This document shows, piece after piece, positions 1,292 to 39,166 of a stretch of 64,000 bases of DNA. Each line of letters opens with the position of its first letter. The stretch's first letter is position 1. The DNA lies in contig OZ024928.1 of assembly GCA_964017235.1 (NCBI GenBank), positions 81,959,566-82,023,565 of the forward strand. The letters run 5' to 3'. Source of the stretch: Sabellastarte sp. h YS-2021 (lineage: Eukaryota; Annelida; Polychaeta; Sabellida; Sabellidae). The notes beneath the pieces were generated by a model. The model saw only the letters and a list, made by a program, of their open reading frames with translations. It made no database searches and was not told the DNA's origin. Made by a program: the position numbers and the translations under genes.

Positions 1292-1402
1292 TTGGCGCGA
1301 TATTCAAAGTTTGAATTTTGTAAACTCTTTTTATTTTGAGTATTTCTTAAGTTATATATTGTGTTTTGTGCTACGATTTGTCAGTTAGTTGGATAAACTA
1401 CC

Positions 1403-3346: not shown

Positions 3347-5663
3347 CAATCACTGCAAAGTTCCTCCGGAAGTAACATCCTGTCCGGAGTTTGGTGTTGT
3401 GGATGTAACAAAGACAAGTCTTCCTGTTCTTGTGAAAGACTCTGTAAATTGTCACAATGTTGCTCATCATGTACTTTCTGTAAAAAACATCAGGCAGCCG
3501 CAAAAGAAAGGCATAAGTCCAATCTTAAACTCACAAAATACAATAAAGTATGTGAAAAGTGCTTCTTTTGTAAATCACTGTGTCTTTGCCCCAAGTGTGT
3601 CAAATGTCCTCAGTGTTGCAAATGTCCAATCAGTAGGGGGACGCCTACAAAATTTTTGGAAAATATGGGCTCTCAAGGGTGTAAACCCGAAGGTAGTATC
3701 CATCTTGAAAGAGGGCTATGTGCTTCCCTTCAAGGTCAGGCCTCCCTTAATAAGGGAACCCCTGATAGTAAGCGGCTATGCAAACCCCACCAGAGACTCC
3801 CACTTACAAGAAGCAGTGCAAGCTCTGATCAAGAAAAAGGCAGTAGAGAGGGTCAGGGTTCGAACCTCACTAGCCTTTTTCAACAGATTGTTCATTGTCC
3901 CAAAGCCGAACCAAAAGTGGCGGCCAATCTTGGATCTCAGTACTCTAAATCAGTTTTTATGCGTAAAAACATTCAAAATGGAGACTCCAGAGACAATCCG
4001 AACCTCTCTACAACAAGGGGAGTGGGTGTCATCGATAGATTTCAGCGACGCCTACTTCCACATTCCAATCCACTTCACATCCCGAAAATTCCTCAGGTTC
4101 CACTTCCAGAACCAGTCGTACCAGTTTCGGGCTCTTCCCTTTGGCCTTTCAACAGCTCCCATGGAGTTCACTGCTGTGGTCAAAGAGGTCAAGTTAATGG
4201 CTCAGTCACAGGGTATAAGAATCCACCAGTACCTAGACGACTGGTTGATTCGAGCCCCTACCAAAGAATCTTGCCACCAGGGAACCCAGTCCCTCCTAGC
4301 CCTTTGCCAGGAGTTGGGCTGGATGGTAAACATGCAAAAATCAGAACTGGAACCCCAACAAATCTTCGATTTTGTAGGCTACCAGTACGACCTGCTCAAC
4401 GGACTGGTCAGACCTACTCAAAACCGTTGGGAAGCCCTTCAACAAAAAATAACAGGGCTATTACAGAGGAGATCTTGCCGAGTGAGAACCTTCATGTCTC
4501 TTATAGGTCTACTCACTGCGACAGAGAAACAGGTGCCCCTAGGCAGACTGCACATGAGACCTATTCAGTGGCACCTCAAGAAACACTGGAGAGTCCCGGA
4601 ATCTCTGGAAAAGGAGATCCCAATTCCGAGGTCTCTCCATCAGCACCTGCAGTGGTGGACCCAGGAGAAAAATGTCCTAAAGGGTCAACCCTTACACCCC
4701 CTACAACACGCGATACAAATCTTTACAGACGCCTCAAAAGAAGGCTGGGGTGCTCACTTAGGCGACTTCACAGCAAGCGGTACTTGGTCAGTGCCCGAAA
4801 GCAAGTTGCACATAAACTTCTTAGAGCTAAAAGCCGTGTTGTTAGCACTAAAAAGATTCCAACAATTAGTGCAAGGAAAGGTCGTCCTGATTGCCACAGA
4901 CAACACCACAGTTGTGGCATACATCAACAAGGAGGGAGGTATGAGGTCAGGTTCACTTTGTGCCCTTCTTTGGCGGCTCCTATGTTGGTGCAATCTCAGA
5001 CAAACAGTACTGAAGGCCAGACATATTCCGGGCCGTCTGAATGTAATTGCAGACAAGTTGTCTCGCCAGGGACAGGTCATTCAGACAGAGTGGTCCCTCC
5101 ATCAGGAGATCTTCGACACCCTTTGTCGAACTTGGCATTATCCCCAAGTGGACATGTTTGCAACAAGGTACAACTGCAAACTAGTCCGGTTTGTGTCCCC
5201 AATTCCAGACCCAAAGGCCTGGTCAGTGGACGCTCTGACGCTGTCCTGGGAAAACCTGGATATGTACCTCTTCCCCCCAGTGTCTCTGATGGGGAAGGTG
5301 GTCAGCAAGCTGTCAGACCATTGGTATCACAGAGCAATCCTGATTGCTCCGGGATGGCCAAACATGCCTTGGTTTTGGGACCTAGTGGAGCTGTCGGCCA
5401 TGGTTCCTCTTTGTCTTCCACACCATCCAGATCTAGTGACCCAACCTTTCAACAAGGCACGTCACAGGGATCTGACAAGCCTAAATCTCCATGCCTGGCT
5501 CCTAGAGCCCAGACCATCAAGGAGCAAGGGTTCTCTAGCCCAGTGGCGGCAAGAATTGAGGCGCCTCAAAGACGTTCAACCAGAGCAGTCTACGAGGCAA
5601 AGTGGGCCCTTTTTGTTAGATGGTGCGAAACAAGTCAGGTGGACTTCAGGAACCCATCTATAA
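3096..5663 (+). CDS. DIRS ORF2: reverse transcriptase, RNase H and methyltransferase-like domain
   Basis: This frame, open for 855 codons, lies +1 to ORF1. The reverse transcriptase covers about residues 240-420: a KWRPILDLSTLN block, then SSIDFSDAYFHIPI, LPFGLSTAP and the catalytic YLDD motif. RNase H follows with IFTDASKEGWGAH, a conserved Glu in NFLELKAV, ATDNTTVVAYIN and a terminal ADKLSR block. The segment from about residue 685 (DMFATRYN, FVSPIPDPKAWSVDAL, ILIAPGWPNMPW) matches the domain that follows RNase H in DIRS elements and is often described as Dam-methyltransferase-like. The true start is uncertain because the first 250 bp overlap ORF1. The C-terminus overlaps the recombinase frame. 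Confidence 0.9.
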   Translation: MSHTSVPTSPVRAVVGSPVLKRSNTVTSHIQHGNRRILETPGLPAKRCLHGRHLAIAGEPVAEAGEVNPVAVRALPRMLRRINDNHCKVPPEVTSCPEFGVVDVTKTSLPVLVKDSVNCHNVAHHVLSVKNIRQPQKKGISPILNSQNTIKYVKSASFVNHCVFAPSVSNVLSVANVQSVGGRLQNFWKIWALKGVNPKVVSILKEGYVLPFKVRPPLIREPLIVSGYANPTRDSHLQEAVQALIKKKAVERVRVRTSLAFFNRLFIVPKPNQKWRPILDLSTLNQFLCVKTFKMETPETIRTSLQQGEWVSSIDFSDAYFHIPIHFTSRKFLRFHFQNQSYQFRALPFGLSTAPMEFTAVVKEVKLMAQSQGIRIHQYLDDWLIRAPTKESCHQGTQSLLALCQELGWMVNMQKSELEPQQIFDFVGYQYDLLNGLVRPTQNRWEALQQKITGLLQRRSCRVRTFMSLIGLLTATEKQVPLGRLHMRPIQWHLKKHWRVPESLEKEIPIPRSLHQHLQWWTQEKNVLKGQPLHPLQHAIQIFTDASKEGWGAHLGDFTASGTWSVPESKLHINFLELKAVLLALKRFQQLVQGKVVLIATDNTTVVAYINKEGGMRSGSLCALLWRLLCWCNLRQTVLKARHIPGRLNVIADKLSRQGQVIQTEWSLHQEIFDTLCRTWHYPQVDMFATRYNCKLVRFVSPIPDPKAWSVDALTLSWENLDMYLFPPVSLMGKVVSKLSDHWYHRAILIAPGWPNMPWFWDLVELSAMVPLCLPHHPDLVTQPFNKARHRDLTSLNLHAWLLEPRPSRSKGSLAQWRQELRRLKDVQPEQSTRQSGPFLLDGAKQVRWTSGTHL

Positions 5664-6565
5664 AACAAATAGCAGATTTCCTCCTGCATCTTTTCCAGGA
5701 GAAGAATCTCCAGCCCAGCACTATTGATGGTTACAGGTCAGCCATTGCAGACAAACTGGGAAATGCCTCGGTTAATGTTGGCAAGGATGACAATTTGACT
5801 AGACTGTTAGACAGTTTTCACAGAGATAGACCCAAAGGGCGCCGGGGGGTTCCTGCTTGGAACCTCTCCCTGGTTTTACACCAGCTTACAAAGGCGCCTT
5901 TTGAACCACTCAGAAAGGCTTCTCTGAAGCACCTTACTTTCAAAACTGTTTTTCTCCTAGCCCTGGCTTCGGGAAAACGCAGGAGTGAGATTCACGCTTG
6001 GTTAAACAAAAATATCAGACACCAAGCTGACTGGTCCAAAGTTTCCCTCTACCCTTCACCAAGCTTCTTGGCGAAAAATCACTTGGCAAAAGAGGGACCA
6101 GAGTGCGTGGCCCCGGTGGTCATCCCGGCTTTAGCCCCCATTCTGGATAAGTCGTTGAAAGAAGACAGATCCCTTTGCCCCGTTCGGGCTCTTCGCTACT
6201 ACCTGGACAAAACCCAGGACCTAAGGACGGGAAAGGAGTTAGTTTTTGTTTCTTTCAAACATGGTTTTAACAAGGACATCTCTCCTGCCACTATCTCATC
6301 CTGGATCAAACAAACAGTAGTGTTGTGTTATGATCTTTCTGACCAAGATACCTTGACCTTACATCAGGTTAAGGCCCATGATGTTAGGGCATTTGCGGCC
6401 TCCAAAGCCTTTCAAGGTGGCATATCTCTGGACCAGATTCTAGCAGCATGCCACTGGAAGTCCCACAACACCTTTACACAATTTTACCTTAAGGATGTTG
6501 CCTGGGCCGATAAGGAGCTTTTTCACTTGGGTCCTGTGGTGGCTGCCCAGCAGATCCACCACTAG
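5354..6565 (+). CDS. DIRS ORF3, tyrosine recombinase
   Basis: The C-terminal part of a much longer open frame (3449-6565). The ATG at 5354 is one plausible start and gives about 403 residues. An N-terminal SAM-like core-binding segment (YEAKWALFVRWCE, PSTIDGYRSAIADKLG) precedes the catalytic domain. Catalytic residues are visible as Arg in SGKRRSEIHA, His-x-x-Arg in HDVRAFAAS, the ACHWKSHNTF block, and the Tyr nucleophile in TFTQFYLKD. The family integrates circular DIRS cDNA by site-specific-type recombination. The frame overlaps the end of ORF2 by 310 bp. All catalytic positions are present, so the protein looks functional. Confidence 0.9.
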   Translation: MAKHALVLGPSGAVGHGSSLSSTPSRSSDPTFQQGTSQGSDKPKSPCLAPRAQTIKEQGFSSPVAARIEAPQRRSTRAVYEAKWALFVRWCETSQVDFRNPSIKQIADFLLHLFQEKNLQPSTIDGYRSAIADKLGNASVNVGKDDNLTRLLDSFHRDRPKGRRGVPAWNLSLVLHQLTKAPFEPLRKASLKHLTFKTVFLLALASGKRRSEIHAWLNKNIRHQADWSKVSLYPSPSFLAKNHLAKEGPECVAPVVIPALAPILDKSLKEDRSLCPVRALRYYLDKTQDLRTGKELVFVSFKHGFNKDISPATISSWIKQTVVLCYDLSDQDTLTLHQVKAHDVRAFAASKAFQGGISLDQILAACHWKSHNTFTQFYLKDVAWADKELFHLGPVVAAQQIHH

Positions 6566-12448: not shown

Positions 12449-13424
12449 TTGTATCCACCGGACGCATCTGGTGGATACTTTGGTTGAGTGTTCGCTATGC
12501 CACCGCCACGCGTAGAGACATTTTCAGTGTTAACGCTCTCAGAGGAAAAATACACCAGCTAGGTTCACCAAATTTGCAGGATATCTTCATTGGGAGGTAA
12601 GCTTCTCTGGGATTGGAATTAGCCTCATTCTGAAAAACAAGATGGCGCCGTGGGCATTTCTTTGAAAATTATTATAGAAGGTTGAATCTCTTCATAGGTG
12701 TTATGTATAACAGATATACATGTCTTCTACAACCTTGCAGACATTTGACCTTGAAGCTCTTAAAACAAGGTCATCCACGGAGTGCCAAATTACCCCACAT
12801 AGCGGACTTTAAAATTGCCTATATCTCTCTTATTATTGGTCCTAGAGGTTTGCAATGTGAAACCAACCTATTGGAAATCATGGTCTGGGAATCTTCTGAT
12901 GTCAGATTTGACCTTGGACCTCTCCTTCAAAGTCAAATGAAGATACCGAAACTTAAAAGTGCTTATAACTCGCTTATTATTGGTCCTAGAGGTTTGCAAT
13001 GTGAAACCAACTTATAGGAAATCATGGGCTGGGAATCTTTTGATGTGGTCAGATTTGACCTTGGACCCCTCCTTCAAGGTCAAATGAGGATAGCCAAACA
13101 TAAAAGTGCTTATAACTCGCTTATTATTGGTCCTAGAGGTTTGCAATGTGAAACCAACTTACAGGAAATTATGGGCTGGGAATCTTCTGAAGTGTTCAGA
13201 TTTGACCTTGGACCCCTCCTTCAAGGACAAACGACTATAGCCAAACTTAAGAAGTGCTTATAACTCGCTTATTATTGATCCTAGAGGTTTGCAAATTGCA
13301 ATGTGAAACCATCTTCTTGGATATCATGGGGTTGGAATCTTCTGATGATGTTACCTTTGGCCCCTCCTTCAAGGTCAAACAATGGTTCACTGCCTTTGGT
13401 GAGTTGTCTTTCCGGTGGATACAA
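12449..13424 (+). mobile_element. Tandem-core transposon E2 (hairpin-headed)
   Basis: Terminal repeats are TTGTATCCACCGG at 12449-12461 and CCGGTGGATACAA at 13412-13424. As in E1 and E3, the left end alone continues into an inverted copy of itself (TATCCACC...GGTGGATA). A lead sequence with CACCAAATTTGCAGG is shared with E3 (CACCAAATTTGG). The core is four tandem repeats of about 146 bp. No clear target duplication was found. No coding potential beyond repeat frames. Confidence 0.65.
12800..13390 (+). repeat. Tandem repeat, 144-148-bp period, four copies
   Basis: TTATTATTGGTCCTAGAGGT recurs at about 12831, 12975, 13122 and 13270. Each copy contains GCAATGTGAAACCA and TTTGACCTTGGACC. The copies differ by few bases, so they are younger than the E1 core. 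Confidence 0.88.
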
Positions 13425-13684: not shown

Positions 13685-14020
13685 CGCATGGTTTCCGCTC
13701 ATTTAAAGGAAAAGTATTAGAGCTATTGTCACCAAATTTGGTATGCAGGCTTATTGGGTCAGTAGCTTGCTTGGGATTGCTTTTGGCTGTTGTACCTCTT
13801 TTGCTTACTGAGTAATACTTAAGTACAGCTATTTTCAGTACCCATTGGTTTCCGTGCATTTAAGCCAAAATAATTAAAGATATTTTACTACAATTTTGAA
13901 TACAAGATTGTTATGTCCATAGCTCGCTTGGTATTGCATTTGGGACTGATAGCTTTGTCAGTACATGAGTAATAGCCATTTAGGTACTTCATTGTGTATT
14001 TTCAGTACTACTTTTGAGTA
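13685..14020 (+). repeat. Two diverged copies of a ~165-bp repeat (B type)
   Basis: Copies begin GGTTTCCG(C/T)(T/G)CATTTAA at about 13689 and 13850, and carry CTGAGTAATAC / ATGAGTAATAGCC near their ends. The same type is amplified in inverted orientation at the right edge of the window (62600-64000). Confidence 0.6.
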
Positions 14021-14022
14021 AT

Positions 14023-17000
14023 TTGCTTCTATCTCCTTAACCGTGCGAGATAGAGCGATTTCGGCAAAATTTTCGACCCGCAGGGTATCTGAGGAGTGTA
14101 CTCTTTGCAAATTTCAAAAAATTTTCCCCTCCCCAAAAATGGCGGCCATTTTGAATTTTCGAATTTTTGCCAAAAATGGCAAAACACAAATTTGCTTCTA
14201 TCTCCTTAACCGTGCGAGATAGAGCGATTTCGTCGAAATTTTCGACCCACAGGGTATCTAAGGAATGTAATATTTGCAATTTTCAAAAAATTTTCCCCTC
14301 CCCAAAAATGGCGGCCATTTTGAATTTTCGAATTTTTGCCAAAAATGGCAAAACACAAATTTGCTTCTATCTCCTTAACCGTGCGAGATAGAGCGATTTC
14401 GTCGAAATTTTCGACCCACAGGGTATCTAAGGGATGTAATATTTGCAATTTTCAAAAAAATTTCCCCTCCCCAAAAATGGCGGCCATTTTGAATTTTCGA
14501 ATTTTTGCCAAAAATGGCAAAACACAAATTTGCTTCTATCTCCTTAACCGTGCGAGATAGAGCGATTTTCGGCAAAATTTTCGACCCACAGGGGATCTAA
14601 GGAATGCAATCTTTGCAATTTTCCAAAAATTTTCCCCTCCCCAAAAATGGCGGCCATTTTGAATTTTCGAATTTTTGCCAAAAATGGCAAAACACTAATT
14701 TGCTTCTATCTCCTTAACCGTGCGAGATAGAGCGATTTCGGCAAAATTTTCGACACACAGGGTATCTAAGCAATGCAATCTTTGCAATTTTCAAAATATT
14801 TTCCCCTCCCCAAAAATGGCGGCCATTTTGAATTTTTGCCAAAAATGGCAAAACACAAATTTGCTTCTATCTCCTTAACCGTGCGAGATAGAGCGATTTC
14901 GTCGAAATTTTTGACCCACAGGGTATCTAAGGAATGTAATATTTGCAATTTTCAAAAAATTTTCCCCTCCCCAAAAATGGCGGCCATTTTGAATTTTCGA
15001 ATTTTTGCCAAAAATGGCAAAACACAAATTTGCTTCTATCTCCTTAACCGTGCGAGATAGAGCGATTTCGTCGAAATTTTCGACCCACAGGGTATCTAAG
15101 GAATGCAATCTTTGCAATTTTCCAAAAATTTTCCCCTCCCCAAAAATGGCGGCCATTTTGAATTTTCGAATTTTTGCCAAAAATGGCAAAACACAAATTT
15201 GCTTCTATCTCCTTAACCGTGCGAGATAGAGCGATTTCGTCGAAATTTTCGACCCACAGGGTATCTAAGGAATGTAATATTTGCAATTTTCAAAAAAATT
15301 TCCCCTCCCCAAAAATGGCGGCCATTTTGAATTTTCGAATTTTTGCCAAAAATGGCAAAACACAAATTTGCTTCTATCTCCTTAACCGTGCGAGATAGAG
15401 TGATTTCGGCAAAATTTTCGACCCACAGGGGATCTAAGGAATGCAATCTTTGCAATTTTCCAAAAATTTTCCCCTCCCCAAAAATGGCGGCCATTTTGAA
15501 TTTTCGAATTTTTGCCAAAAATGGCAAAACACTAATTTGCTTCTATCTCCTTAACCGTGCGAGATAGAGCGATTTCGGCAAAATTTTCGACACACAGGGT
15601 ATCTAAGCAATGCAATCTTTGCAATTTTCAAAATATTTTCCCCTCCCCAAAAATGGCGGCCATTTTGAATTTTTGCCAAAAATGGCAAAACACAAATTTG
15701 CTTCTATCTCCTTAACCGTGCGAGATAGAGCGATTTCGTCGAAATTTTTGACCCACAGGGTATCTAAGGAATGTAATATTTGCAATTTTCAAAAAATTTT
15801 CCCCTCCCCAAAAATGGCGGCCATTTTGAATTTTCGAATTTTTGCCAAAAATGGCAAAACACAAATTTGCTTCTATCTCCTTAACCGTGCGAGATAGAGC
15901 GATTTCGTCGAAATTTTCGACCCACAGGGTATCTAAGGAATGCAATCTTTGCAATTTTCCAAAAATTTTCCCCTCCCCAAAAATGGCGGCCATTTTGAAT
16001 TTTCGAATTTTTGCCAAAAATGGCAAAACACAAATTTGCTTCTATCTCCTTAACCGTGCGAGATAGAGCGATTTCGTCGAAATTTTCGACCCACAGGGTA
16101 TCTAAGGAATGTAATATTTGCAATTTTCAAAAAAATTTCCCCTCCCCAAAAATGGCGGCCATTTTGAATTTTCGAATTTTTGCCAAAAATGGCAAAACAC
16201 AAATTTGCTTCTATCTCCTTAACCGTGCGAGATAGAGTGATTTCGGCAAAATTTTCGACCCACAGGGGATCTAAGGAATGCAATCTTTGCAATTTTCCAA
16301 AAATTTTCCCCTCCCCAAAAATGGCGGCCATTTTGAATTTTCGAATTTTTGCCAAAAATGGCAAAACACTAATTTGCTTCTATCTCCTTAACCGTGCGAG
16401 ATAGAGCGATTTCGGCAAAATTTTAGACGCACAGGGTATCTAAGCAATGCAATCTTTGCAATTTTCAAAATATTTTCCCCTCCCCAAAAATGGCGGCCAT
16501 TTTGAATTTTCGAATTTTTGCCAAAAATGGCAAAACACAAATTTGCTTCTATCTCCTTAACCGTGCGAGATAGAGCGATTTCGTCGAAATTTTCGACCCA
16601 CAGGGTATCTAAGGAATGCAATCTTTGCAATTTTCAAAAAATTTTCCCCTCCCCAAAAATGGCGGCCATTTTGAATTTTCGAATTTTTGCCAAAAATGGC
16701 AAAACACAAATTTGCTTCTATCTCCTTAACCGTGCGAGATAGAGCGATTTCGTCGAAATTTTCGACCCACAGGGTATCTAAGGAATGCAATCTTTGCAAT
16801 TTTCCAAAAATTTTCCCCTCCCCAAAAATGGCGGCCATTTTGAATTTTCGAATTTTTGCCAAAAATGGCAAAACACAAATTTGCTTCTATCTCCTTAACC
16901 GTGCGAGATAGAGCGATTTCATCGAAATTTTCGACCCACAGGGTATCTAAGGAATGTAATATTTGCAATTTTCAAAAAAATTTCCCCTCCCCAAAAATGG

Positions 17001-19127
17001 CGGCCATTTTGAATTTTCGAATTTTTGCCAAAAATGGCAAAACACAAATTTGCTTCTATCTCCTTAACCGTGCGAGATAGAGCGATTTCGGCAAAATTTT
17101 CGACACACAGGGTATCTAACCAATGCAATCTTTGCAATTTTCAAAATATTTTCCCCTCCCCAAAAATGGCGGCCATTTTGAATTTTTGAATTTTTGCCAA
17201 AAATGGCAAAACACAAATTTGCTTCTATCTCCTTAACCGTGCGAGATAGAGCGATTTCGTCGAAATTTTCGACCCACAGGGTATCTAAGGAATGTAATAT
17301 TTGCAATTTTCAAAAAATTTTCCCCTCCCCAAAAATGGCGGCCATTTTGAATTTTCGAATTTTTGCCAAAAATGGCAAAACACAAATTTGCTTCTATCTC
17401 CTTAACCGTGCGAGATAGAGCGATTTCGTCGAAATTTTCGACCCACAGGGTATCTAAGGAATGCAATCTTTGCAATTTTCCAAAAATTTTCCCCTCCCCA
17501 AAAATGGCGGCCATTTTGAATTTTCGAATTTTTGCCAAAAATGGCAAAACACAAATTTGCTTCTATCTCCTTAACCGTGCGAGATAGAGCGATTTCGTCG
17601 AAATTTTCGACCCACAGGGTATCTAAGGAATGTAATATTTGCAATTTTCAAAAAAATTTCCCCTCCCCAAAAATGGCGGCCATTTTGAATTTTCGAATTT
17701 TTGCCAAAAATGGCAAAACACAAATTTGCTTCTATCTCCTTAACCGTGCGAGATAGAGCGATTTCGGCAAAATTTTCGACCCACAGGGTATCTAAGCAAT
17801 GCAATCTTTGCAATTTTCAAAATATTTTTCCCTCCCCAAAAATGGCGGCCATTTTGAATTTTCGAATTTTTGCCAAAAATGGCAAAACACAAATTTGCTT
17901 CTATCTCCTTAACCGTGCGAGATAGAGCGATTTCGTCGAAATTTTCGACCCACAGGGTATCTAAGGAATGCAATCTTTGCAATTTTCAAAAAATTTTCCC
18001 CTCCCCAAAAATGGCGGCCATTTTGAATTTTCGAATTTTTGCCAAAAATTGCAAAACACAAATTTGCTTCTATCTCCTTAACCGTGCGAGATAGAGCGAT
18101 TTCGTCGAAATTTTCGACCCACAGGGTATCTAAGGAATGCAATCTTTGCAATTTTCCAAAAATTTTTTCCTCCCCAAAAATGGCGGCCATTTTGAATTTT
18201 CGAATTTTTGCCAAAAATGGCAAAACACAAATTTGCTTCTATCTCCTTAACCGTGCGAGATAGAGCGATTTCATCGAAATTTTCGACCCACAGGGTATCT
18301 AAGGAATGTAATATTTGCAATTTTCAAAAAATTTTCCCCTCCCCAAAAATGGCGGCCATTTTGAATTTTCGAATTTTTACCAAAAATGGCAAAACACAAA
18401 TTTGCTTCTATCTCCTTAACCGTGCGAGATAGAGCGATTTCGTCGAAATTTTCGACCCACAGGGTATCTAAGGAATGCAATCTTTGCAATTTTCAAAAAA
18501 TTTTCCCCTCCCCAAAAATGGCGGCCATTTTGAATTTTCGAATTTTTGCCAAAAATGGCAAAACACAAATTTGCTTCTATCTCCTTAACCGTGCCAGATA
18601 GAGTGATTTCGTCAAAATTTTCGACCCACAGGGTATCTGAGCATTGTACTCTTGGTAATTTCTAAAAAATTTTCCCCTCCCCTAAAATGGCGGCCATTTT
18701 GAATTTTCAAATTTTTGCCAAAAATGGCAAAACACAAATTTGCTTCTATCTCCTTAACCATGCGAGATAGAGCGATTTCGTCGAAATTTTCAACCCACAG
18801 GGTATCTAAGAAATGTAATCTTTGCAATTTTCAAAAAATTTTCCCCTCCCCAAAAATGGCAGCCATTTTGAATTTTCGAATTTTTGCCCAAAATGGAAAA
18901 ACACAAACTGGCCTTAACCGTGCAAAATAGAGTTATTTTGTTGAAATTTTCGACCCATAGGGTATCTAAGAAATGTACTCTTGGCAATTTTCAAAAAAAT
19001 TTCCTTTTCCCAATAATGGCGGCCATTTTGAATTTTCAAATTTTTGCCAAAAATAGAAAAACAGGAATTGGCTTCTATCTTCTTAACCGTGCAAGATAGA
19101 GTGATTTCGTCAAAATTTTCAACCCAA
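14023..19127 (+). repeat. 169-bp satellite array, about 30 copies
   Basis: The unit contains CTTCTATCTCCTTAACCGTG, AGCGATTTCGTCGAAATTTT, CGACCCACAGGGTATCTAAG, TTTTCCCCTCCCCAAAAATG, GCGGCCATTTTGAATTTTCG and the dyad TTTGCCAAAAATGGCAAA. Spacing is 169 bp with rare indels. An 837-bp five-unit block around 14700-15536 is repeated, apparently identically, at 15537-16373 (higher-order duplication). Copies are most alike in the middle and decay toward the right edge (18600-19127). All frames of about 60-104 codons here are repeat artefacts. Confidence 0.95.
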
Positions 19128-28976: not shown

Positions 28977-29078
28977 TCACACTGCAGCTGTTGGTAAAAC
29001 CTGACCCAGTTTGACTAGAATTTGATTGGTGGATGGTACTTCCTGTTCAAGCCAGCACTCTTTCAGTAAAGGCACCAA
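28977..29078 (-). CDS. 7TM-pseudokinase gene, terminal exon (end of kinase C-lobe)
   Basis: The acceptor is ttttaaaacag (minus strand). The exon reads LVPLLKECWLEQEVPS then TNQILVKLGQVLPTAAV and stop. The spacing L..LLKECW...P....I...L..L is that of kinase helices alpha-H and alpha-I at the end of the C-lobe (normally CW...P..RP). It joins the 2.5-kb exon in phase 0 after YTAAQ. This shows the kinase fold resumes after the long insert, giving residues 1322-1354 of the model. Confidence 0.8.
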   Translation of the reverse strand: MVPLLKECWLEQEVPSTNQILVKLGQVLPTAAV

Positions 29079-30111
29079 CTGTTTTAAAATAGAAAAGTAA
29101 GGATATAAAGCCATCAGACATCTTCTGGATGCATGTATCATCGTGATTACTCAGAATAGTTCAAGAAATGTAAAGCTATCATTTTACTGCTTCCTCTCAC
29201 TTGCACAGTTATATGGGCTTGTGGTATATCAATGACACCCTGGAATGTACAAGGGAAAATGTAGGACCAAACTTTTGTCACTGTTTGTACATATGATTTG
29301 CAATATTTTGACTTCTGAAAATAAAGACTAAATCCTATATATTCATTGTACTTATGACAAGACTAGTGTGTTAAGTTTGAGGGTTCCTGGACACATTAAT
29401 GCACACATTATCATATTATAACACATGTCAACACTTTAGACCACATAATATTACCAACTATTTGTTCAGATATCAATTGTTTTAGTAAAAGCTTATGCTT
29501 TAAGTAATGGTGTCCATGATTCAAACATTGGGTTGGTTTTTATTTTAATTCTCCTATAGTCCACTCATATTTCATGCACATTAAATAAATCTTCAGGAAT
29601 ATGAATAAACTTTATATATCAAGAGAAGAAGTGTTGTATGTAGAAATATTTAAAAGTATTATCAATGGATTTTTCTAAAGATTTAAATAGGCCATGATAA
29701 CCTCTTAAACGCTGCATAACTTTCTGCACAAAAAATAATGGGTTTACATTTTTTTGTGAAAACTATGCAACAGATGCAAATAGAAGGGGTTTCCTCATTT
29801 GTAGACTAGAAGGGGTTTCCTCATTTGTAGACTTCATATACTTTACTATATTCCTTTCTCCCCCACTTAAAAAGACACTGTTCTCCCATTTCTTCAATCA
29901 TGGTTCAAATCCTAGCTCTACTTGTGTATGTGGCAGGCATTGGTGGAAGATTCATTAAAGGTAGGTGGTTTGCATAACACCTAGTCCTCAAACTCAACTG
30001 CCAAGTGATTTAATCACAAAACAGTGTCTAGAAAATGTTGTGAAAACCAGTTTAATTAAAATTTATGGGTTTCAATTTCAACAGTCTTAAACACAGAAAC
30101 CACATAAATAC

Positions 30112-32622
30112 CTGTGCAGCTGTGTAGCCAAGGCGGCCTTTCCTTTTGAGAGTATCCAACACTGAAGACACAGTATCTTCATCCCCAGACAACTCCACAA
30201 TCTGCTGTACCACTGGATGGTTTGTCATAACCTGCGAATGTAACTGAGTCTGTGACTGGAGGGTTATCCCACGAGCCCCACCGTACATCTCCTGAAGAGC
30301 ACCCTTATTATTAGTTAACATCTTCTGGTGATGGTGATGGCTCCCATTTCTTTCTGCATTAGCCACATATAAATTAGAATCCTGTAACAGTGTCAGTACA
30401 GAATTGTTAATAGAACTGCTACCTCCCGGCAGACTTCTCGCCGACTGCCTACCATTAGATGCACCACTCATCACTGAGCTCCGACCTGCTGCCAAAGACT
30501 GCATGCTCCCTAACTGACACGTGGGTGAGGAGAGTGGGGAAGATAAAGCAGAACCATTGTTAGCTTGGCGGGAAAAGGCGACTGCAGTTATCCCCAACTT
30601 TGGGACATTGCCTGGTCTGCATTTTTGAGAGTGGTGCACTGGAGGCCTGGAACTACTGATCTGTGAGTCTGTGTCACTGGTGATTTTGCTGCAGTGACAG
30701 CAGTCTGTAGACTTGCTGGTTGTTGTCCTACCAGATGTACAGCTTATCTCTGTAACTACACTCTCACAGTCAGTTGGTATTCCATGTGAATCACAGGTTG
30801 AATTTGGTTTACATTTTCTTTCCAGACTGTCTGTTGTCATGGTTGATTCATCCACTAAGACTTTACAAGGCTCCTTTTCTTTAAATGCTGATTGTTTTGA
30901 AGGAGCAAATGCTGATCTTTTTGCTATTGATTCATAATGATGTTTATCACTTATTCCACTTTGATCTCTACTGGTCTTGTCCTGTTTCGCAGTCTGAGTT
31001 TTCACATACTTTTTACGGCGTGGCGGTTTTGGTGGAGCTGTACAACAGGTGGTCCCTGGAATATGTTTGTGCTGCCCTCTACAAGGCTTCTTTCTCACCA
31101 TCAAATCTGGAAGCATTTCATAAAAATCATCAAAGTTCTCTTCATTCACACTTGACTGCATCCTACTATCAGTGCTGGTGTTTTGTAACTCTATGGGACT
31201 TGAGAGTGTGATATCACTGCTTAGTACACTATCCACCCCATCATCCTTGACCTTTTGGCTATTTCTTTCTAAGTAAGCCATAAGCAAGGAATAGCTGTCA
31301 CTGTCTGATGTTGGGGGTCCTCCTTGGTATATAGCACTTCTACTTCCAGGTGAAAAGACATTGCGCCCCTTCACTCTAGCCCCTTGTACTTCAGAACTAG
31401 TGCCATAGTGACTGGAACCCATACCACTATCTCCACTGAGTATACTGTCATTAAAAGAGGCACCGGATAAACGCTTCTTTTTCCATGCCTCAGTTTCAGA
31501 TTTTACTGGCAGCTTTCTTTTCACAACAGTGTCATATTTCTTCTCATTGACATATTTTTCGGAGGTCTTGCCTAAGCCGGAATCCAATGACTGTGGCACA
31601 CTTTCTTGTGATTCATCATCCTCATAGATTGTGTCAAAGCTGCCACAGCTATTTACAGAGGCATTGTACATATCATCACTAACTGCCCCATTCTTCTCCT
31701 CTGATGACTTGGACAGAGAAAGTGTACTCTCTGGACTTTGTTCTGAATCTGTACTGGTGTCTTTTTCTTGCAGGTTTGCAGGAGATTTGGGATAGATTGA
31801 GTCCACATCACTTTCACCACTTTCACCAATCATGATGGATCTTTGAATAGATTTCAACAGGTTAGGTTTTGGTTTCAGCTTTGGTTTGACACACTTTTCT
31901 GTCAATGTAACACTGGGTGTTTCACCTGGAGTTTCATTGGATACAGCACTCATTGATACTTCATTAACCACTTTCTCTATTTCAATAGGAATTGCAGGGA
32001 GCTGCCTCTGCTGGATTTTCTGCATTTTGTTTTCCATGTCTTTTTGTATAGTGTCAGAGGACACTGGACCAATGTCTTTCCTCTCTTCAATTGGATCTAG
32101 ATATGTATCAATGCTTGGTTCTCTGTCAACTGTGATCCTGCTTGAACTTTCACTTACAAATTCAAGTTCAGGCTTACTTGAACTGAATGGTGCGAGTGCC
32201 TGGGAAGGATGTTGTTTACATGCTCCAGTGTGTGCTCTAATGTCTGTGACCTTTCCGGTAGATGTACAGTTTCTACTATGCTTACGTTTTATCTGATGCT
32301 GCCTGTGTGAATGTACACGCTGTCCATATTTCACCACTGGGCTGTTTTTAAATGCTGCTTGCATGGACTTGGATGATTTGCTTTCATTTGCAGCCTTTGT
32401 GGCAAGATTATGATTATATTCACTGAGAGATATCAACATTTCCAGCACCATCACACCAAAGGATCTGATATCAGGAGAAAACTCAGACTTATCCTTATCA
32501 GCTGTTCTGCTGTTTTCACCATATGAAATCGCAAAAAGATTGTCCTTTAGATGTTGGTTACGTTTCTGTTGTACAATGTAGCTATTTTCAAAATCTCCTA
32601 TCACCGCTCGTAGACCAATTTT
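30112..32622 (-). CDS. 7TM-pseudokinase gene, large exon: activation segment plus ~750-residue insert
   Basis: One 2511-bp exon (837 codons, phase 0 at both ends), acceptor ctgtttgtag, donor CACAG|gtattt. Model residues 485-1321. The start continues the kinase-like domain: KIGLRAVIGDFEN has DFE where DFG is expected, and SPDIRSFGVMVLEML is the helix-F block with its Asp (535). After about residue 555 come roughly 750 residues rich in Ser, Thr, Lys, Asp and Glu with little predicted order, including a poly-Ser/Asp stretch, a PPKPPRRKK proline-basic motif (SH3-ligand-like) and a His run. The end (QQIVELSGDEDTVSSVLDTL) leads to the alpha-H exon. The exon is fully open, so it is under coding constraint. 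Confidence 0.85.
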
Positions 32623-32875
32623 CTACAAACAGATAAACAAATTACAAAGTAATTAATTTGAATAAATATACTCAACCACTAATATGTAGTACATATTTTA
32701 GTTTGGCAATTTCAAGGATTTGAACCCAAATTATGTCGTACTTGACATGCATATATTAGGATGTTTATTTTAGGATCAGATATGATAGAGGAATCAGTGA
32801 CTTTAAATAGTCTTTGACTTCCCAACTTTGAGCTTCAAAGTAATTTTAAAGCAAATAAATTCTGATGCAACTGAC

Positions 32876-33068
32876 CTCAGAGACAGATGCCATGTAGACA
32901 CACTTGGTGGTAAGCTGGTTGTGGACTATACCCAGGTTGTGGATGAAGTCCAACCCACTCGCCGTATCCAGTGTGAGTTTGTGAATACCAACTTCTGTCA
33001 GCTGATGGATCCTCACCTTCAGGAACTGGTAGAGGTTGCCATGAGCAAAGTAACTCTTACAAATCAGT
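32876..33068 (-). CDS. 7TM-pseudokinase gene, exon with degenerate catalytic loop
   Basis: The acceptor is tgtctttttttag and the donor is TCTGAG|gtcagt. The exon completes a split Gly codon and reads CKSYFAHGNLYQFLK, then TLDTASGLDFIHNLGIVHNQ. These match kinase beta-5/alpha-D (Y...GNL..FL), alpha-E (ASGL.FIH) and the catalytic loop. HRD is replaced by HNQ (469-471) and the loop Asn by Cys (476), so phosphotransfer is unlikely. It is 193 bp, leaving in phase 0. The layout resembles TKL/receptor-type kinase homology domains. Confidence 0.85.
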
Positions 33069-33145
33069 CTAAAAAAAGACAAAAATTATGGATTTAACAC
33101 ATAGGTAATATACAGACATGATTGTAAAATGCTGATGAATTTTTG

Positions 33146-33488
33146 TTACCTCCACCAAGGAAGTATTAAATTTATGACAATTGGTATGTTTGTCTGTTTC
33201 TTTTTAGCAGCATTAGATAAATACTACTGGTTGGATCTTCATGAAAAAATGAGAAGATGGGTCTTGGCCCAACAGAGATCTTATTAAAGTTTGAGAGTGG
33301 CCTGAATCACTGCCAGGATAAAACAAAATATCAAAGACCCAGGTTTTCACATTAACTTATTATTTAGCCATTTTGCTTTAGAAAAGAGAGGTTATTTAGC
33401 CATTTTGCTTTAGAAAAGAGAGAGAAGGTTCTGACATAACCTATACATGCCTGGTGGGGGGTCTGCACTCTCCAAGTGCTCTTGAACA
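33146..33488 (-). repeat. Interspersed repeat copy (AGAGTGCAGACC family), inverted
   Basis: On the minus strand it starts AAGAGCACTTGGAGAGTGCA and ends TTCCTTGGTGGAGGTAACAA. The inside contains an internal 32-bp tandem duplication (TTATTTAGCCATTTTGC at 33359 and 33391). It is the same family as 26426-26695, inside an intron of the 7TM-pseudokinase gene. Confidence 0.55.
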
Positions 33489-33844
33489 AACATTCCTAAA
33501 CTTGTATTCCAATATACTCTTAACATTGAACTAATTACCAAATTTTAATCTGGATAAGATCTTCGTTGACTATAGCAAATTAAATTAACTTTCAACTCAA
33601 CTAGGATCCTTGTTACATTGTGGTAAAGGCATCCTTTAATTAGTCCTCAAGTGATTTTGTCCATTTTAATATTTTTGACAGCCATAATATATCATTTTTT
33701 AAATTTTTACTACAGATTCACAACATACAGATATAACCATTGACAGAAAGTGTCAATGAATTTAATATTGCTGAACTACTGACACAAATTTCTGTGTTTG
33801 GAATAGTGAATTTTATTATTCAGATAAAACAAAAAGATAGCTAC

Positions 33845-34089
33845 CCTGATTCTAGACTGAGCATGTCTCCAGTTAACATACAGACAGCTCCACTGTACTT
33901 ATTGTCCCGAGCTTGCCAGTGGTACTTGAGAACATTTTGGTGTTCAGCACTGCTCCCTATCCTCATCAGAGCCTTGACTTCATTCTGCCACTTCTGATTG
34001 GCTGAGGGATGGAACACCTTCATGATTCCTGAGTTGAACTGACCCTGAATTCCCTTCCAGTGAACAAGATATTGGTTGATGTCTTTGTT
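33845..34089 (-). CDS. 7TM-pseudokinase gene, kinase N-lobe exon
   Basis: The acceptor is ttattaatttcag and the donor is ATCAGG|gtagct. The exon begins NKDINQYLVHWKGIQGQFNS, a beta-1/glycine-loop-like segment. GIMKVF follows, with Lys 362 in the VAIK position, then NEVKALMRIG with Glu 375 as the alpha-C partner, then HQNVLKYHW. The kinase domain begins immediately after this splice junction, directly downstream of the 7TM exon. The length of 245 bp leaves two bases that pair with the next exon to make Gly. ATP-binding residues are kept while catalytic ones are lost. Confidence 0.85.
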
Positions 34090-34301
34090 CTGAAATTAAT
34101 AATAGCAGTGGTGGATTGTTTTGCTATGATTTATACTAGATAATTAGTGGTCAAATTACATTGAAACATGTAATAATGTTATAAAGAAGAACCACATTGA
34201 AGAAAAACTGCTTGAAATTATTCACAAAACATTCCACAAATTCTTGTATTTGCTTGATAGACATGAAATTGGTCTTTTTTAACACTCATGATATAATAAA
34301 C

Positions 34302-34596
34302 ACCATATTTCACAATATAAATGCCCCCTCCCTATTAAATGCCCCCTTTTCAACTTAGTGATTCCAGGATTCCGAAAAACATGATTTTTAGTACATCCCT
34401 AATCAAATAACTGCTAACAGGAAACAAAAAAAAAACATTGGAACAAAATATGGCAGTTTGATCAAGAAAGACTTGTTCTCCTACAATTAAACGTGCTGGC
34501 GATCAAGATGCAGGTTGTAAAGTGTCTATTTATCACTTATCACTACCAGACTCCCTCCCCTCATTGCTCCTGGGTATTTATTCTGTAAATTACGGT
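34302..34596. repeat. MITE, 295 bp, in 7TM-pseudokinase intron
   Basis: The imperfect terminal repeats are ACCATATTTCACAATATAAA and the reverse complement of the right end, ACCGTAATTTACAGAATAAA. AAC lies directly outside both (34299-34301, 34597-34599), a possible 3-bp duplication. Confidence 0.6.
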
Positions 34597-37500
34597 AACT
34601 TGTTTTATATACTAGTTATCCAAATATCAACAAATTAGTTAGATACATGTATTTTATTATCAAAATCCAGAAGAGAAGTATTTGACATTGTATTTCTGTC
34701 TTTGGGGAAGCAACATTGTCTGTATTTTTTCACATGCACCAAAAAAAAAACAGAAGTAATTACATGTTTAAATATTTAAAGGTTTAAATAAACATACATT
34801 TCTGAGCATACAGGATGCAAACAGGAACAATATATCATGCTAATAAACACCTATCATGAAACCATGTGCTTAAGAAGTTAAGACATTTTTTTATAAATGT
34901 GGTAATTATTATATGGCAAAAAGGTCCACCTTTATCAAGAAAGTATCGAAATACAAAGTAATTATGATAGTCACAGAATCCCTTCAAAACATAAATAATA
35001 GGTTTTTTCAGTTACTTTAAAATCTACCGTTTAAATTTCATGCACAGGTGTCCTTCACCAATCCTTATCAAAAACAAAAAAGCCGGAGTGACCTAGTTGA
35101 TCCCTTAAATTATATTTCATTATTAGCATGTAACATACACTCACAGTGTTACCAGTATCTCTATTATCAACACATGCATTGTATTATTACCAAAGAGCTT
35201 GAAAATCCCATTTATATTAGGAACCTCATATCTTAACAGGTGTTTTCACCTTTAGTTTGCCATGCACATATATTTTTTTCAGTTATGAAAAAGTATAGTT
35301 TTACCACAGTACAGACCACAGCTATAAATTTATGCAAGAAATATCATATACAAATGTATACATGTCTGTTTGTGATACTGTGATACACATTTTGATAACA
35401 AGGTCAAAGATTAATCTTTAAAGCTTTCTTGTTCAGCTTTTCAAGTCTAAGACATTGTATAGCTATAGTTGAACTTATCAAAAATAAATGACCAAAATAT
35501 AATTTTTTGTTGGCTTAACAAACTGAGGAAATATTAAAGAAAAAAAAAACAAGATTGGTAACATAGAGTTGTGATTATTTACTTTCAGATAATGTATCAG
35601 AGTTGAGTTTATTTGCCATAATTTGATATCTCATTAGCCTCAGACCTTATGACATGCAGACATAACAAACATAGGCTGCCACCCATTTCTAATCACAATA
35701 CTGTTATCTTGGGACATGACAAGATTGACTGGTTCATAGGCAGATTGTGAAGGTAACTCTTAATACAATCACTGTAAAAAATATATTCAAACTTGGATGA
35801 AGATATTTCCTTTGATCCACACCTCTTTTAGGATATTAATGAAATCTGCCCAAAAATTTTTGTTTGCAACAGAAGGTGAATATGTAAGAATTCATATATT
35901 TTCCATAATGACAGTAACAATTCTTTGGCCCTTTAACACAAAAAGTTTGTTCATTGCTGGCTAGGCTGAAAACTGAAAAAAGTGCCTTCACAATAATGAA
36001 ATGAATGAAATCGACAGTAAAAATATGGCAACTCTACTATTACAGGAAAGACTATTAGTCAACTTTTAGTTTAAATATTAACTCTGAACCTGAATGTTAC
36101 ACTCAGAGTTGAAACATGCCAGAGAGATATTCAATTCATCCTATATTCCAACAGGACATACAATCTCTTTGAATAATAAAACTATATACAAGAGTATAAA
36201 ATTCAATCTGCAAAGCCAACAAATGGATAGACATTTTATTTACAGTTGAGGGGGAAAAACTCCCAAACTATGTTGCAAACTAAGAAATAGACAATACATT
36301 AACTCGCACTTCTTAATTTTAAGCAGAGTATCACATAACATACAATTTAACAAATCACACACTAAGATGATTTGAATAATGCAGACACTCGACTCTTCCA
36401 TTCATGAAAGTATGTCATGACTTTATTCATTAATTATATTGACTAGGGTCAACAGATCAAGCCACCCTGAGATTTTAAGAATTTTCAGCATATATTAAAG
36501 AAATTACTGGAACAATTTCCATAGTATTTTCTCATGAAAAAAAATTCAATGAGAATTAAAAGTCAATCATAAGGTCATTTTTTGTAACAATCCAAAAAAT
36601 CATATATTCTCATTTTGCAGCAAAAATTCATCTCCTTTTGCGGTAAAATTATATGAAAATATTACATACTTAAACTTTTTCATGGAGGTTATAAATATTA
36701 ATAGGAAAAATGAAATAATTTTTATGTTTAAATTATTCTGAATCCTAACTGGGAGACACTGGGTAAATGGAAGTATCTGATGTGGCAAAATGTCTCTCTT
36801 TTAAAATTGCTTCTGTAGATATATACTTAAGAGTCACCAATGATTCATTTCTGTTAAAACCCCACAGGTAAACCCCAGTGTGTAGTGTTATGAAATTCCC
36901 TTTCAATTTCACTTGAATAAAAAATACAAGCCCTTTTCAAATGGAAGACAGTGGTTTAAATTCCTGAAATGATTGTCTTACAAGTGGAAAAAAAGGCAGA
37001 ATTGTAGTAGATGTGCATCTCTGGGGGTTACAGAAGAATGATATGGTGTACTGCAGAAACAAATGATTACCTTGTTGTGCTTCTACAAATTCAAGGTGAC
37101 ATATTTTTCAGTCCTCCTTTGAAGACCTTGGGCACAAAAACCTGTTATTCCTGTTATCTGATTGGGGGTACAGTGTATCATACTTGAAGTCCTCTATATT
37201 CTTGACAGAAACTAATCATAGTCTTCCCCACAGTACAAGAAACCAGATACATGGCTGCATGAGATTATGGTTTAATGACTGCAGCTACAATCATGACAAT
37301 CACCCAAATAAAGAAAAGAAACTATGACAACAGAATCTATGTGGAACCAACATGAGTTAAAGAATCAAAGTATGTCAAATTTAGGTATAAGTAGAATCAT
37401 AGAGTTGCATTTATGCACAATTTTTGTTAACAAAATAGCCAATGTGAAAATACAACTTTTAAAAAAAAAGTTGCTGTGAATATGAGGCTTCATCTATATA

Positions 37501-38074
37501 TATATCTTACCAAGTTTTACCCCATACTATTCATTAGAAGAAATAACTACCTATGCCAGAAAACCAAAATAACTGTATTTAAAACCAATTTCCTTACCTG
37601 AGTCAAAATAATGATTGCAACATTGTAAAAAATACAAATAAAATAAACTAAATAAACACGAATGCATTTAGATTTGTATTTCTCAAGTCAACTTTTTGAA
37701 CAAAAATGAGTTTTGTCTTTTGAAACAAAATTTTTGTTTCTAGCAATAGATCGTCATTGGTGGTATTCATACCATTGTTAGTTTTGTAAACTTGTAAGTA
37801 CAATAATAACTTATTATTTACATTATATAAATGATGACAAAAAGCCATTTCATGCAATGACACCCTCCTGAAAGTTTTTATGCTATACTTCTCTAAAGTA
37901 TCAACATTTTTTGGTGACAAAGCATCTTTGTGTGAGGGGAAAATGATCATGCTCCGAAACCAGACATTTGTCATTGTTATGTTGAAGTCGACATTATCAA
38001 AACATGCATCAATGTGTACAACAACATACAGACTTGGGCAAGTACCATTTACTGAAAAGCAAATAATTTTTTAC
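34597..38074. other. Remainder of ~4.0-kb intron in the 7TM-pseudokinase gene
   Basis: AT-rich sequence between the 7TM exon and the first kinase exon. Scattered short frames show no conserved motif. I see no missing exon that would be required, since the flanking exons join in phase 0. Confidence 0.5.
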
Positions 38075-39088
38075 CTGAAATGACGCCGCCAGTTTCTGAA
38101 TGCTTTCTAGCTTGGGAGGGAAGCTTGTCATGAAGTTATCTTCTTGAGAATAATATCTGTGGCTAAACCAGGACGTTTTCATCACAGCATGCAAAACACA
38201 CACTAGTATTGGGTTAGACATTATGAGTATGCTCACTAGATATCCCACAATCCATTGTATACTTTTCTGACTTATAGAGTGACCACCAGAAAAATAGTTA
38301 ATGCTCATTAGCAGTAGAATCAATGCCCATAAAGCTATGTTATAAGCTAGTGTTGAATTCATCCAAAACTGCAGCTTAATGTTGGCTTTCTGCTGTCTCT
38401 GCTTTGGTTCATTAAGATCCAGCTGAGGGGTTATCAATGGAGTAATGCTCTTGCGTATCCTGATATTGTAAGCTACCAATAAAAGCAATGCAATAAATAA
38501 TGCAATCCAGTTTAATATGACTATGAGGGTGGAGTATGGCCAACCAGTTTCACTTGGAAGGCGAAGAGGTGTACAGAGGTAGTAATAAGCACCATCTATT
38601 GTAAAGTAGGCAATATTTGTCATTGGCAGGAAGGATACAATGGCAAGTACAATACACTTCACCACAAGCAAGAGAATAAAGATTGGAACACTCCACTTAT
38701 TTGTCACAAGTCTTTGGTAGTCCTCAGATGTCTTCCCAAAATCTCTAGACCTAATGACATTTGAGCGTATCCATAAGAACAAGACTAGGCACGAGGTAGC
38801 CAACATCCAGAAAGATTCCTGAGTGGAGAAGACAACAAGAAAGCCTCCAATTTTACAGAGGTCCGTGGAACCCAGATCACTGTACAAAATCAGCAGTGTT
38901 ATGGCTAATCCCAGAAATGCATAAGCAATGGTAAGACCACCAAAGGCATACTTCAGATAGCGAGTCTCCTTTGTGGACTTGACCTTGACACAATGCCAGA
39001 TAAGGAGGATGACATTGAGCATGATAGCGGTTCCTGTGCAGGCACAGAGGGTATAGGACAGAACCCTCTCTTCTGAACTCAAAGCCAT
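38075..39088 (-). CDS. 7TM-pseudokinase gene, seven-transmembrane exon with start codon
   Basis: This single exon encodes 338 residues and ends TTTCAG|gtaaaa in phase 0. The start is chosen for its strong context (GACCATGG) and an in-frame TGA upstream. Seven hydrophobic segments lie at about residues 11-33, 46-69, 82-107, 133-156, 186-208, 243-265 and 278-302. Cys78 at the start of TM3 and Cys172 in the second outer loop could form the usual GPCR disulfide. The TM4-TM5 region faintly recalls LGR-type receptors. The DRY motif is absent and TM7 has SNPILV without the NPxxY Tyr, so G-protein coupling is uncertain. The extracellular N-terminus is only about 10 residues. Confidence 0.85.
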
Positions 39089-39166
39089 GGTCTGCTCCCT
39101 TCCTCTTCTGTCACTGACGGTTAATAACCTTTGCTTGATTGCTTTTCATCCTCCATTCAGAATGAG
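39089..39166 (-). other. 5' UTR part of the 7TM exon, with acceptor
   Basis: On the minus strand a strong polypyrimidine acceptor (TTTTTTCTTTTTATTTACAG) ends at 39167, so the exon begins at 39166 and at least one non-coding exon lies upstream. A candidate partner donor AAAG|GTAAGTTAA lies at about 40601. Confidence 0.6.
39111..39149 (-). promoter_or_regulatory. Upstream ORF of 12 codons in the 5' UTR
   Basis: GAGGATGA starts MKSNQAKVINRQ and stops at TGA 22 bp before the main ATG. The uORF context (GGATGA) is weaker than that of the main start. It could dampen translation of the receptor. Confidence 0.5.

Follow-up and report, generated by a model that had tools for sequence, protein, structure and literature searches.

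The 64,000-nucleotide window analysed here (contig OZ024928.1, positions 81,959,566 to 82,023,565 of the forward strand) carries on its minus strand a predicted gene that combines a seven-transmembrane (7TM) half with a kinase-like half. Five spliced exons add up to 1354 codons plus stop, with all introns GT-AG and in phase. This agrees with the initial annotation of the stretch, which had joined five minus-strand exons in perfect phase at the same positions:

39089..39166, minus strand: probable 5' untranslated part of exon 1, with a good acceptor at 39166 (rank 5/667)
38075..39088, minus strand: coding part of exon 1, the complete 7TM half (residues 1-338), with a conserved start Met and a phase-0 donor at its end
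33845..34089, minus strand: exon 2 (245 bp), kinase N-lobe, from the spliced frame and the kinase profile match
32876..33068, minus strand: exon 3 (193 bp), alpha-D to catalytic loop, from the spliced frame and kinase alignments
30112..32622, minus strand: exon 4 (837 codons), DFE, activation loop, alpha-F, a large insert and the start of alpha-G, from the spliced frame and relatives
28977..29078, minus strand: exon 5 (33 codons plus stop), predicted alpha-H/alpha-I of the C-lobe (LLKECW...), from the spliced frame and kinase alignment

Splice sites were ranked among the 642 GT and 667 AG sites of the region with a simple consensus scoring scheme based on assumed frequencies. The donors of the four introns ranked 14, 39, 6 and 35, in order, and the acceptors of exons 2-5 ranked 80, 8, 53 and 146. 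The splice sites had been described as good, which holds for the donors but not for the acceptors of exons 2 and 4, which are modest, or for that of exon 5, which is weak. Codon-usage scores were positive for all exons (37, 21, 20, 216 and 5 bits for exons 1-5), with a signal of only 0.11 bit per codon in exon 1. By the same measure the read-through of exon 1 (-6.7 bits) and a 140-codon open reading frame (ORF) in intron 1 both scored negative. No second copy of the gene was found in the 1.79-Gb, 647-contig assembly at the sensitivity of the genome search used.

Exon 1 contains seven hydrophobic peaks, the lowest at 1.55, and past residue 340 no peak exceeds 1.27. Lysine and arginine are frequent in loops 1-2, 3-4 and 5-6 and scarce in loops 2-3, 4-5 and 6-7, in line with the positive-inside rule, and the predicted topology is seven transmembrane helices with the N-terminus outside and the C-terminus inside. 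Predicted structure models show seven long helices and then a short helix after the seventh. In each of four structure comparisons, made with these low-to-modest-confidence models, all 50 of the 50 matches listed were G-protein-coupled receptors (GPCRs) by title. Exon 1 matched no Pfam family at E<=1, its relatives P0002 and P0003 matched no 7TM family in Pfam, and no PDB sequence matched the 7TM part at E<=10. Since a curated 7TM family match was missing, we filed this half as a GPCR-like fold rather than as a member of a particular class, and the seven predicted helices and the listed GPCR matches support the GPCR-like 7TM half of the initial annotation. The quality of the models weighs against this assignment: that of the window protein has a pLDDT (predicted local distance difference test) of 48, and Foldseek gave it no match with E below 0.001, and that of P0003 is better yet modest, with a pLDDT of 57 and 10 of 852 matches under E=0.001. 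The two relatives show 60% and 54% identity to exon 1. The start Met and the end of exon 1 are conserved in both P0002 and P0003, and their homology to the window protein extends as far as the splice point of exon 1, where the sequences diverge.

The second half is kinase-like, as proposed before, and PF07714 matches the kinase part (E=2.3e-11). Together with relatives elsewhere for exon 1 and exon 4, this sequence match indicates that the gene model exceeds chance. With the insert described below removed and exon 5 joined, the match improved to E=7e-13 and covered profile positions 13-244 of 258. Its first aligned residue is the 15th or so of exon 2 and corresponds to profile position 13, and the domain start is therefore extrapolated to about 3 residues into that exon. 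A profile search of the kind suggested by the initial annotation located PF07714 in the kinase part and no Pfam family in exon 1; families other than PF07714 and PF00069 did not appear in the Pfam scan at E<=1, including phosphatidylinositol-phosphate kinase (PIPK) and DEP. Of the PDB sequences, JAK2 was the best solved structure with the insert left out (27.6 bits), followed within 1.5 bits by RON (26.6) and A-RAF (26.1), and the JAK2 alignment extends to the last helix. The first 146 kinase residues matched MET best (E=0.002) and TGF-beta receptor type 1 (TGFBR1) next (0.0067), and a 112-residue cut spanning the glycine loop through helix E matched TGFBR1 best (E=0.017). By sequence similarity the kinase half is assigned to the tyrosine kinase (TK)/tyrosine kinase-like (TKL) superfamily, with the best group varying with the cut used. 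Less favourable to this assignment, the N-lobe piece alone (65 aa) matches no kinase in PDB, and no Pfam family matches the isolated 61-aa segment of helices G to I, which is too small or too divergent to give a match on its own.

Several catalytic residues have been lost. Alignments with A-RAF and with kinases of the same genome bear out the earlier reading of HRD as HNQ (32915-32923, minus strand, exon 3) and of DFG as DFE (32587-32595, minus strand, exon 4), and they place Cys at the catalytic Asn. The same-genome alignment was made with MAFFT and had a usable frame in 6 of the 8 fetched kinase loci, two partial. Judged by these residues, the domain is a pseudokinase. The VAIK Lys and alpha-C Glu had also been described as kept, and candidates for both were located with TGFBR1:

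34018-34020, minus strand: K362, probable beta-3 Lys, from the TGFBR1 alignment
33979-33981, minus strand: E375, probable alpha-C Glu, from the TGFBR1 alignment

K362 aligns with the beta-3 Lys of TGFBR1 and E375 with its alpha-C Glu, and in both proteins the two residues are 13 apart. The other alignments disagree in part with these assignments: K377 and not K362 stands in the Lys column with A-RAF and RON, and E375 lies about 4 columns off the alpha-C Glu in the MAFFT alignment.

Exon 5 most likely encodes the end of the kinase C-lobe, with the insert placed between helices F and G, because the insert-free match rises to 7e-13 and the JAK2 alignment reaches the last helix. Neither this insert nor the conservation of its family was part of the initial annotation. 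Its main features are:

30187..32406, minus strand: low-complexity insert of ~740 residues that separates helix F from helix G (approximately residues 557-1296) and contains conserved short motifs
31612..31629, minus strand: IYEDDE (residues 816-821), present as IYED(D/E)E in 7/7 aligned rows
31414..31431, minus strand: DSGMGS (residues 882-887), present as DSG-hydrophobic-G-S in 7/7 aligned rows

A search with the protein of exons 2-5 covered 6604 candidates and returned seven proteins at E<=1: the window's own and six relatives (P0005-P0010) with 25-44% identity over 21-83% of the query. The exon-4 alignment consists of seven rows including the window protein; P0005 begins downstream of DFE, and DFE or DFD is found in all six rows reaching that site. 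Further conserved blocks in exon 4 are C-x-(C/S)-(S/T)-x-(R/K)VT(D/E)IR, KR-x-S, K-x-P-C...H...C and P-x-L. The Cys/His block RKKPCRGQHKHIPGTTCC lies in the insert at residues 994-1011 (31042-31095, minus strand, exon 4), its Lys, Pro, Cys, His and Cys are invariant in 7/7 rows, and it could bind metal. DSGMGS fits the beta-TrCP consensus DSGXXS given in PMC5954166 and appears degron-like. DSG-hydrophobic-x-S occurs in 0.95-2.05% of composition shuffles of each row, so that the seven aligned copies are not chance, though the rows share ancestry; the same rate counts against the consensus-based reading as a degron. P0006, P0008 and P0010 reach upstream of the exon-4 acceptor with extra residues that do not resemble exon 3 and may come from translation of the end of an intron. 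Homology ends at the exon-4 donor with Q|V in P0005, P0008 and P0010 and with K|V in P0009, and it stops before the donor in P0006 and P0007; the intron positions in these relatives are inferred from protein sequence alone.

That the 7TM and kinase halves form a single protein, as the initial annotation had it, is in our judgement highly probable, with the gene model and the splice points as evidence for a junction that would be present in the mRNA. Homology of the three 7TM sequences is lost after a Gln at the same place, and the next residue is Val in 3/3, which corresponds to a codon beginning with GT. The window splice point is CAG|GT, a GT-beginning codon is implied in P0002 and P0003, and the tails that follow are unrelated. 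Exon 1 should therefore be joined in phase 0 to a further exon. Exon 2 begins in this phase and needs a coding exon upstream, because it is preceded by an in-frame stop 7-9 bases ahead of its first base and has no Met until the presumed beta-3. Several points weigh against the fusion. It depends on the gene model, with the 7TM-kinase junction deduced from genomic sequence; the full-length search found no relative with both halves in one sequence; the relatives of exon 1 and those of exon 4 are different proteins encoded on different contigs; the acceptor of exon 2 is modest and that of exon 5 weak; and intron 1 contains five AATAAA signals on the minus strand. These signals and the missing full-length relative would fit two neighbouring genes on the same strand, a 7TM gene that ends by read-through, as in the 359-aa ORF P0001 ending at 38009, and a pseudokinase gene whose separate first exon is non-coding or far away. 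This arrangement seems unlikely to us, since the read-through tails are unrelated in three sequences and all start at the Q|V point, the tail in the window scores as non-coding, and the stop just upstream of exon 2 is followed by no Met before the presumed beta-3. Intron 1 also offers no convincing coding first exon: of the seven phase-0 candidates that start with ATG, have 10 codons or more and a donor score >3, the best reached a coding score of 1.5 bits.

If the fusion is accepted, its kinase may still be an unconventional active enzyme rather than a pseudokinase, as WNK and HER3-like kinases are unconventional active exceptions. The DFG Asp is kept, as are the beta-3 Lys and alpha-C Glu in the TGFBR1 alignment, and the conserved DFE/DFD could still bind metal. 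Activity is nevertheless improbable, as the window protein has Gln for the HRD Asp and Cys for the catalytic-loop Asn, and an acid replaces the DFG Gly in 6/6 rows. A decaying or mispredicted locus, in which exons of unrelated genes were joined by eye, would account for the modest acceptors of exon 2 (80/667) and exon 4 (53/667) and the weak one of exon 5 (146/667), which count against the gene model, and would suit a window that has tandem repeats and a retroelement elsewhere. We consider this very improbable, because all five exons are open and coding-like, exon 1 and exon 4 are 60%/54% and 25-44% identical to relatives, respectively, and the kinase match crosses exons 2-5 in order.

On balance we favour a single gene that encodes a 1354-residue 7TM receptor with a TK/TKL pseudokinase and a ~740-residue C-lobe loop, the pseudokinase probably acting as an allosteric platform. 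Exon structure, GPCR-like fold, kinase homology, catalytic residue loss and conserved motifs are supported by computation; we infer the junction in the mRNA, the disorder of the loop, the type of ligand, the allosteric coupling and every motif function. The protein would start with a short N-terminus and a GPCR-fold bundle, and the intracellular C-terminus would lead directly into the pseudokinase, whose C-lobe loop is probably disordered. A small ligand or lipid may shift the 7TM bundle; binding within the bundle is suggested because the protein is without an ectodomain. The change could then pass to the pseudokinase through the juxtamembrane stretch of roughly 40 residues between helix 7 and the start of the kinase domain, a distance like that in receptor kinases. 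The pseudokinase, nucleotide-responsive or fixed, would serve as an allosteric platform and not as an enzyme, which is the plainest reading because catalysis is lost while the DFG Asp is kept, as are, probably, the Lys and Glu of the nucleotide site. The loop may act as a docking string with conserved Ser/Tyr motifs phosphorylated by other kinases, where IYED(D/E)E would recruit adaptors and the DSG-x-GS site the SCF-beta-TrCP ubiquitin ligase, thereby limiting receptor life. These motif functions are suggested by consensus only, which counts against this part of the model. More tentatively, the protein may represent a conserved receptor class of lophotrochozoans, or even of bilaterians more widely. 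In such receptors a bundle with the GPCR fold would directly gate a dead kinase that works as a scaffold under the control of phosphorylation; the conserved ~740-residue docking loop in its C-lobe would contain a beta-TrCP-type degron, and the main output would be G-protein-independent.

Elsewhere in the window, a DIRS/Ngaro-like retroelement of the tyrosine-recombinase type lies at 1397-6565 (plus strand). Its overlapping ORFs contain RNase H and a reverse transcriptase (PF00078, E=1e-22), and they also match a phage integrase, though this match falls short of its cut-off. A tandem array at 14020-19126 has a period of 169, 30.4 copies and 94% matches and gives a ladder of near-identical 109-codon ORFs, and a second array at 12809-13379 has a period of 147 and 3.9 copies. 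In the host genome, contig 21 contains a Hox cluster at 12.9-14.1 Mb with seven homeodomain matches on one strand (L013-L018, L020). Lox5 with a KLTGP parapeptide was read at this cluster. The Lox5 parapeptide is a signature of lophotrochozoans and platyhelminths according to PMC5431905, and the host is therefore a bilaterian and not a sponge.

According to the initial annotation, the kinase part of known 7TM-kinase fusions has a different fold. This is incorrect, as GPCR-TKL, GPCR-TKL/K and GPCR-TK proteins have protein kinase domains (PMC5784254, PMC12716839). PMC5784254 describes GPCR-TKLs with a tyrosine-kinase-like protein kinase domain from oomycetes and amoebozoans, and PMC12716839 describes GPCR-TKL/Ks from acanthoecid choanoflagellates as well as GPCR-TKs from choanoflagellates and sponges. 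The Discussion of the latter paper counts GPCR TKL/Ks among the families uncovered in metazoans, and its section 26 narrows this to sponge GPCR-TKs. No bilaterian 7TM-protein-kinase fusion was among the matches listed from the open-licence full-text literature. The claim that no animal family of this design has been named thus stands for bilaterians as far as found, but sponge GPCR-TKs share the order of parts (PMC12716839). The 7TM-kinase fusion itself is known; as far as found, its bilaterian host, the loss of catalytic residues and the very large, conserved insert are new. The two major classes of animal receptors, GPCRs and receptor kinases, are regarded as separate in bilaterians. If true, a bilaterian case that is conserved and has a dead kinase would widen the range of such fusions and indicate that a fused kinase can be retained as a platform, and it would offer a tractable single gene for studying what a 7TM-kinase fusion does.

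Compared by description, the GPCR-TKs of choanoflagellates and sponges are holozoan and likewise have a 7TM part followed by a C-terminal TK-type kinase, whereas the protein described here is bilaterian, has lost catalytic residues and has the ~740-aa insert (PMC12716839). The GPCR-TKL/Ks of acanthoecid choanoflagellates also have a 7TM part and then a kinase, but by the same description they form a large cluster of 176 receptors, 92 with a kinase, and here one copy was found (PMC12716839). The GPCR-TKL bigrams of oomycetes and amoebozoans share the 7TM part and tyrosine-kinase-like domain; in Phytophthora infestans 8 of 17 have a DEP domain, which had no match here (PMC5784254). These lineages are distant and the origin is possibly independent. 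GPCR-PIPK/RpkA also combines 7TM and kinase parts, but its domain is a phosphatidylinositol-phosphate kinase, whereas PF07714 and no PIPK was matched here. The TGFBR1 kinase (TKL group) is the best match of the 112-residue cut and shares the Lys-Glu spacing; it belongs to an active single-pass receptor kinase, and the similarity is weak, with MET or JAK2 leading other cuts. HER3, PTK7 and the receptor guanylyl cyclases are membrane receptors that use a dead kinase as a platform, and they are single-pass, whereas the protein predicted here has seven helices.

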